Notes under the pieces: generated by a model
Databases searched by the model: none
What the model was told of the DNA's origin: nothing
Seen by the model: only the letters and a program-made list of their open reading frames with translations
Shown here: positions 12,738 to 64,000 of the stretch, piece by piece
How positions within the stretch are numbered: position 1 is the stretch's first letter
How the letters are laid out: each line of letters begins with the position of its first letter
DNA from: Rhodobacteraceae bacterium LMO-JJ12
GTDB lineage: Bacteria; Pseudomonadota; Alphaproteobacteria; Rhodobacterales; Rhodobacteraceae
Direction: 5' to 3'
Assembly (NCBI GenBank): GCA_021555075.1
Contig: JAKGBX010000001.1
Span: forward strand, 2,046,001-2,110,000
Length of the DNA stretch: 64,000 bases
Program-made: the position numbers and the translations under genes

Positions 12738-12890
12738 CAGATTTTCAGCCCTTGTTCTTTATCATTTTTCTTGCGCGGCGCCGCGGACCGGAGCCTGTCC
12801 CGTGAGGCCGAGTATGTCGTGGGGCCGTGCGGGCGTCCAGAGCAAAATTTCAGGCCCGCGTGACGCTGTCTGGTGAGGTTTTGCATAGGG

Positions 12891-60344: not shown

Positions 60345-60382
60345 AAAAAAAACCGCCGCTCTTGGGGTTTCCAAGGCGGCGG
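60345..60382 (-). terminator. Intrinsic terminator of the SOS-box small gene
   Basis: On the minus strand a 12-bp stem with one bulge (plus coordinates 60371-60382 pairing with 60353-60365) is followed by eight T residues (eight A at 60345-60352 on the plus strand). It is oriented for minus-strand transcription, ending the unit that begins near 60724. A plus-strand role for the scaffold gene is less likely because there is no T-run. Confidence 0.8.
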
Positions 60383-60546
60383 CAAGGTGCGTGATCGCAT
60401 TTAACCCTGTCAATTCCGGGGGCGGTTGAGGCAGTCCCCATGGGATGGTCAGACAGGCAGTCTACTCAGGGCGGCGCTTTAGTTTGGGACAGAGTGCGCC
60501 GCCGATCAGGGCCACGCGATCACGTGGCAGAAAAGTCAAAAGAATC

Positions 60547-60669
60547 TCAGGCAAGCCCCGGCAGGTGCAATCCGGCCACCAGCATGACCATCAGCGCAAC
60601 AGCCCCTATCGCATCCTGCCAGAGGGTGTCTTGGCTGCGTTCAACGATGGCTTTGATCTGGGTCAGCAT
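60547..60669 (-). CDS. 40-aa one-TM protein under a LexA-box promoter
   Basis: This is a very short gene. The product is 40 residues: an amphipathic, mostly polar N-terminal part with charged and Gln residues (about 1-19), and a hydrophobic helix of about 20 residues (20-39: AIGAVALMVMLVAGLHLPGL). CAGGAG lies eight bases before ATG 60669. A weaker in-frame ATG at 60717 would add 16 residues. Upstream lie a LexA box and promoter elements, and downstream an intrinsic terminator. No named family is known to me. The size, topology and SOS control resemble the TisB toxin of E. coli. It is downstream of recG on the same strand. Confidence 0.7.
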   Translation of the reverse strand: MLTQIKAIVERSQDTLWQDAIGAVALMVMLVAGLHLPGLA

Positions 60670-60730
60670 AATGTCGGCTCCTGCTCTCGGGCATGTTTGT
60701 TGCCTCTTTGTTCTCATTTTGGAAACCTTT

Positions 60731-60760
60731 TGTAAAGAACTTTTTGAGAACATTAGTGAA
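60731..60760 (-). promoter_or_regulatory. Promoter with LexA (SOS) box
   Basis: The plus strand has GAAC (60737-60740), seven bases, GAAC (60748-60751), a perfect alphaproteobacterial LexA direct repeat (GAAC/GTTC-N7). A third GAAC follows at 60758. On the minus strand candidate -35 TTCACT (60755-60760) and -10 TTTACA (60731-60736) are 18 bases apart, with the box between them, where LexA would block RNA polymerase. Transcription would start near 60724, some 55 bases before the small gene. Confidence 0.7.
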
Positions 60761-60779
60761 CATTGTAAGACTTCTGCTT

Positions 60780-64000
<3,221 letters not shown>

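Follow-up and report, generated by a model that had tools for sequence, protein, structure and literature searches.

Close behind recG in Rhodobacteraceae bacterium LMO-JJ12, a 40-codon open reading frame preceded by a LexA-type box raises the question of whether a short SOS-controlled gene stands here in its own right and, if so, what it does for the cell. It was originally predicted, from the DNA letters alone, to be a self-contained, SOS-induced small membrane protein gene, possibly of the TisB type. Coordinates refer to the window (the whole 64,000-nt stretch of DNA that was analyzed), and all of the elements described for the locus lie on its minus strand. The predicted elements (box, ribosome binding site, 40-codon frame, and a hairpin with eight T) are all present at their predicted positions: the ribosome binding site CAGGAG (60678..60683), which has a purine-rich counterpart in relatives, stands eight bases before the ATG (60669) of the frame (MLTQIKAIVERSQDTLWQDAIGAVALMVMLVAGLHLPGLA; 60547..60669), and an intrinsic terminator (60345..60383), composed of the GC-rich hairpin GCCGCCGC and the eight T, ends at 60345. 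A terminator was recognized by script in 103 of 107 relatives, and recG (60780..62870), itself outside the unit, lies upstream of it in 104 of 107 genera. With the 40-residue gene so close behind recG on the same strand, the transcript might be recG read-through only, with no separate unit, an outcome that the original prediction had itself set against its proposal; we consider this scarcely credible, as the unit has its own conserved promoter, operators, and terminator, and at one locus (L025) both unit and promoter are present where recG is not adjacent. As had been predicted, the unit is self-contained, having a promoter and a terminator of its own.

The box by itself says little about LexA control: GAAC-N7-GAAC is not rare (chance alone predicts 1.8 copies for the window, and the genome has 114), and because the bare box is not unusual by count, conservation and an independent operator model were needed. 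The same repeat occurs in the lexA and recA promoters of most Rhodobacteraceae genomes examined (in LMO-JJ12 as GAACATGCGTAGAAC before lexA and GAACAAGAGGTGAAC before recA), and we built a matrix from 34 lexA and recA operators of family relatives, none of them taken from the unit's locus. Over about 128,000 positions in the window, this matrix ranks the box (GTTCTCAAAAAGTTC, GAAC-N7-GAAC on the plus strand; 60737..60751) first at 16.7 bits, and a second, degenerate operator in the -10/start region (GAACAAAGAGGCAAC; 60699..60713) third at 13.3 bits; in 2 Mb of the same genome the first operator ranks tenth, with those of lexA (30.1) and recA (23.3) ahead. The GTTC-N7-GTTC box is kept in 106 of 107 genera, the second box has the family consensus TGAGAACAAAg.ggCAACA, and the spacing from the first box to GAGAAC is a rigid 21 nt in 93 of 95 cases. 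LexA control of the unit, also part of the original prediction, is thus well supported by matrix and conservation, and both sites would presumably bind the repressor. Chance occurrence of the box is ruled out on the same two grounds, although its bare count is at chance level.

The consensus of the promoter in 106 genera reads tttGTTC.CaaATGTTCTcAaAAAGTTCTTTACa....gt....aAtaTGAGAACAAAg.ggCAACAaa, in which the TTTAC of a -35-like TTTACA (60731..60736) is conserved. A promoter scan scored no consensus sigma-70 promoter at the unit and TTTACA is not part of a consensus pair; the hexamer marks a putative promoter type. The box had been correctly described as a perfect GAAC-N7-GAAC but had been placed between -35 and -10 elements; it lies upstream of TTTACA. 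An extra GTTC half-site (60758..60761), 6 nt before the first box, is conserved with it (consensus tttGTTC.CaaATGTTC, 106 promoters), and its N6 spacing differs from that of LexA.

The encoded protein belongs to a family that we found in 349 of 397 Rhodobacteraceae genomes, a set with effectively a single genome for each genus. A search of 285 other alphaproteobacteria found no member. This prevalence is probably a lower bound, because a search with the promoter recovered three further genomes (L423/G024, L421/G081, and L418/G083) with the same layout, whose divergent open reading frames of 38–43 residues were missed by the protein profile. The length is exactly 40 residues in 99 of 107 loci and the start codon is ATG in all 107; M1, D19, G22, and L34 are invariant among the 99 sequences of 40 residues. 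Third codon positions are the most variable and the median dN/dS is 0.20 (pairs at least 65% alike), with no conserved stretch of 7–10 columns within the protein. AlphaFold2 predicts helices at residues 2–11 and 13–39 (pLDDT 87), corresponding to an amphipathic N-terminal helix and one uncharged transmembrane helix: not one of the 1,881 residues at positions 20–38 of the 99 sequences is charged, the net charge averages -0.02, and the hydrophobic moment of the transmembrane segment is 0.05–0.07. These data support a single-pass small membrane protein gene under purifying selection, and the prediction of a real gene, with frame and box conserved across the family, is borne out.

The remaining element of the original prediction, a depolarizing peptide of the TisB type linked to persistence, fares differently. 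TisB is a cationic amphipathic, pore-forming helix, and type I toxins are narrowly spread. A LexA box and a short membrane peptide are indeed what the unit has in common with the TisB/IstR system of Escherichia coli, whereas a cationic amphipathic helix is absent family-wide, the transmembrane helix being uncharged in all 99 sequences with a net charge near 0, and the gene is near-universal and syntenic, following recG at one place in 104 of 107 genera. Neither an antisense RNA nor an inhibitory leader was found; a simple scan returned no antisense promoter at the unit, and the start region is about half unpaired (probability about 0.5). On charge and distribution, we regard a TisB-type function as very improbable and discard that part of the prediction. 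SidA and DicB/DicF are the closer models.

What the original prediction overlooked is a structured RNA between the stop codon and the terminator (60546–60384). We compared this region, of about 185 nt, across 103 loci (median 181 nt). The motif CUG(C/U)C occurs 452 times in these regions, against 82 times in dinucleotide shuffles and 7 times on the reverse strand, and it is exposed: its unpaired probability is 0.70 versus 0.39 for other bases, and is the higher of the two in 98 of 101 loci. Taken alone, the folding energies depart only moderately from expectation on the low side (median z -2.1). The fast-evolving stems are misaligned by MAFFT alone; we wrote the structure on an alignment of ten relatives, from which a covariance model was derived. 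In that ten-relative alignment, which was not fitted to the model, 10 of the 29 pairs show two-sided changes (0/500 shuffles). The model matches 76 of 97 loci, always at the 3′ region, and in LMO-JJ12 it matches only this locus (25.8 bits). Across the model-based alignment of 76 genera, all 29 pairs show two-sided changes (404 cells, against 102 when shuffled and 63–88 when slid), numbers that are upper bounds, as such an alignment is biased toward the structure.

The fold (60384..60531) consists of a long closing stem enclosing three hairpins with the loops CUGUCCC, CUGCCUGUCC, and UGCCUC, and is followed by the terminator. The motif can be placed at four sites on the sequence: CUGCC within CUGCCAC at the RNA's 5′ end (60526..60530), the loop CUGUCCC (60486..60492), the loop CUGCCUGUC with two overlapping CUGYC (60452..60460), and a further loop CUGCC (60430..60434). 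No match at or above the gathering threshold exists in Rfam 15 for the RNA, and the protein has no family match in Pfam or NCBIfam at curated cut-offs, in PADLOC (any match), or in the PDB; the prediction that the unit belongs to no named family therefore holds in these libraries, with the structured RNA as the part it had missed. The main text of the sRNA papers on Ruegeria pomeroyi and Paracoccus denitrificans makes no mention of recG, SOS, or LexA. At one locus (L008, genome G027), protein and promoter are kept and neither a terminator nor a CUGYC-rich 3′ RNA is recognized past the stop codon.

The 3′ half of the transcript is a conserved regulatory-type RNA, whose importance probably equals or exceeds that of the peptide. 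Two features of dual-function RNAs are found here, namely a conserved open reading frame (dN/dS 0.20, fixed start and length, and a ribosome binding site) and a conserved structure with exposed seeds outside it. The locus is a real, conserved, and unnamed SOS-type unit of new composition, and our leading hypothesis is that it acts as a brake on division and cell-wall synthesis. On balance, we favor a LexA-repressed dual-function RNA gene, present throughout Rhodobacteraceae, that specifies a small membrane protein together with an antisense RNA that would slow division and the building of the wall. Upon DNA damage, LexA would be cleaved and a single transcript of about 350 nt, possibly subject to processing, would be induced. 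Its 5′ half would be translated into the inner-membrane protein of 40 residues, which crosses the membrane once; the 3′ half would form the multi-hairpin RNA exposing several near-identical C-rich loops (CUGUCCC, CUGCCU), which could pair with GGGACAG or GGCAG at the translation starts of wall and division genes, mraZ first among them, and would presumably reduce their translation, with murC, dapD, murI, and ftsW as probable further targets. The membrane protein may restrain the division machinery, much as SidA does in Caulobacter, and the net outcome would be a pause in septation and wall synthesis until the DNA is repaired.

We examined mraZ because the leader of the dcw operon in Rhodobacteraceae is already under sRNA control: in Rhodobacter sphaeroides, StsR and UpsM exert RNA control of this operon through the mraZ leader (PMC8307010, PMC5089854). 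At the start of mraZ, the head of the division and cell-wall (dcw) operon, stands GGGACAG, the complement of the loop CUGUCCC. Of 40 unit-bearing genera, 21 have this heptamer within -45..+6 of mraZ, where its position varies from -27 to -6; no other 51-nt window between -600 and +700 contains it in more than 5% of them. In the same comparison of genera it is absent from the starts of lexA, recA, and the unit itself. In 2 Mb of the LMO-JJ12 genome, 7 of 1,854 starts carry it: mraZ, murC, dapD (twice as GGACAG), rpiA, a lipoprotein gene, the gene of an ABC ATPase, and a seventh gene, all identified by eye from the N-terminal sequences. The dcw cluster is split in this genome, and murC belongs to the second segment (ftsW-murG-murC-...-murB-ddl-ftsQ-ftsA); the heptamer marks 2 of 13 dcw genes versus 5 of 1,841 others (p = 0.0009; 10 of 9,058 equally rare 7-mers do as well). 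The starts of murC (C1:1275212, GGGACAG), dapD (C1:399714, GGACAGGGACAG), murI (C1:1877875, GGACAGGGCAG), and ftsW (C1:1272847, GAGGCAG) carry complements of the RNA loops in this one genome.

Of 19 genomes that had initially been scored as unit-less, a single one, G024, had GGGACAG at mraZ, and the independent promoter search then showed that it has the unit; after reassignment, the motif is present in 22 of 43 unit-bearing genomes and in 0 of 16 unit-less ones (p = 1.5e-4, uncorrected for ancestry). On the MraZ tree, the motif changes 16 times yet recurs, and the unit changes 4 times. After ancestry correction, however, the association is weak, because the unit-less genomes cluster on this tree and leave too few independent contrasts (2–4). 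Cognate RNA–mraZ pairing has no significant advantage over permuted pairing (p = 0.12), and exact GGGACAG is missing from mraZ in 21 of 43 unit-bearing genera, some of which have GGGACGG, GAGGCA, or GGCAG instead, matched by their own RNA as judged after the fact. GGGACAG at mraZ could instead serve ribosome binding or autoregulation by MraZ; MraZ boxes are TGGG repeats. From the few contrasts and the result for cognate pairing, we grade the case for mraZ as a target as good but not proved.

Two other readings accept the unit and assign its parts differently. Were the protein alone to matter, an SOS-induced membrane protein would bind FtsW, FtsI, or FtsN and thereby block division, as SidA does, and the 3′ RNA would be a stabilizing tail with a terminator. 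Purifying selection across the whole family is consistent with this, as are the single uncharged transmembrane helix and the invariant D19, G22, and L34, which suggest a specific partner; SidA, a 29-residue LexA-controlled inner-membrane division inhibitor, comes from the same bacterial class (PMC4211646). Such a reading leaves unexplained why CUGYC loops are repeated (and absent from the other strand) within a covarying fold and why a matching motif stands at mraZ, and we think it unlikely. The RNA could also be a sponge or a protein-binding platform whose CUGYC loops titrate another RNA, such as UpsM, or an RNA-binding protein, with no direct silencing of mRNAs. Many loop copies of one short motif are the layout of a sponge RNA, and in 92.5% of genera (for example at the mraZ locus L320) GGCAG is found in the terminator loop of UpsM, at -90..-39 relative to mraZ; yet this GGCAG may be kept for the terminator itself, and the GGGACAG peak falls exactly at the start site, as direct translational control would predict, which makes titration, in our judgment, quite improbable. 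In LMO-JJ12, the UpsM-loop sequence GUGGCAG is fully complementary to the CUGCCAC that lies at the 5′ end of the structured RNA. The dual-function reading is the one we carry forward, and its most ambitious form, in which a family-wide DNA-damage checkpoint would act mainly via the RNA, the SOS transcript silencing both dcw halves (mraZ and murC) together with dapD and murI while the protein acts on the division machinery, is offered tentatively.

Of the closer models, SidA of Caulobacter crescentus is a LexA-controlled inner-membrane protein of 29 residues that acts on FtsW (PMC4211646). The unit likewise encodes a very short inner-membrane protein under LexA-type control in an alphaproteobacterium; it differs from SidA in the length of the protein (40 vs. 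29 residues), in a family not found among the 285 alphaproteobacteria outside Rhodobacteraceae, and in having an RNA part, of which we found none reported for SidA (PMC4211646). DicB and DicF, from the Qin prophage of E. coli, are a small protein and an sRNA of one operon, both inhibitors of division, and DicF base-pairs close to the ftsZ Shine-Dalgarno sequence (PMC6832061). Here, too, a small protein and an RNA come from one source and are predicted to act jointly against division, but the unit is a chromosomal core gene of the family with LexA-type operators and one short transcript, its predicted targets are mraZ and murC, and no sequence relation was seen. With StsR/UpsM it shares candidate RNA control of dcw via mraZ in the same family; unlike StsR, which responds to RpoHI/RpoHII and pairs with UpsM (PMC8307010, PMC5089854), the RNA described here is preceded by LexA-type operators and is complementary to the start site of mraZ. 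Among dual-function RNAs that base-pair and encode a small protein, VcdRP (29 residues) acts in carbon metabolism (PMC8672173). It differs, as does SgrS/SgrT, from the SOS-type unit described here, in which repeated seeds stand in a multi-loop RNA behind the coding part. The functions of SgrS/SgrT, base-pairing and a small protein, belong to sugar metabolism.

Rhodobacterales are dominant marine bacteria and models of photosynthesis, and none of the papers we found names an SOS division inhibitor of this order; the unit is a strong candidate for one, in nearly every genus of Rhodobacteraceae. If the proposed mechanism is true, base pairing would link DNA damage to wall and division genes, a route for which the prophage RNA DicF has so far been the main example, and a whole family would be seen to keep an SOS gene that is missing from curated protein and RNA libraries. 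Outside the unit, the second-best match to the LexA matrix in the window (TAAAGAACAAGGGCTGAAAATCT, 14.2 bits) lies at 12739–12761 on the minus strand, and elsewhere in the genome a site of 19.2 bits (C1:1342254) stands 47 nt before a gene whose product starts with MQPGQLLGRGVCRFLASHDFVTLEEFVPQRGKRVDVMALG, which we take to resemble MmcB-type DNA repair proteins.
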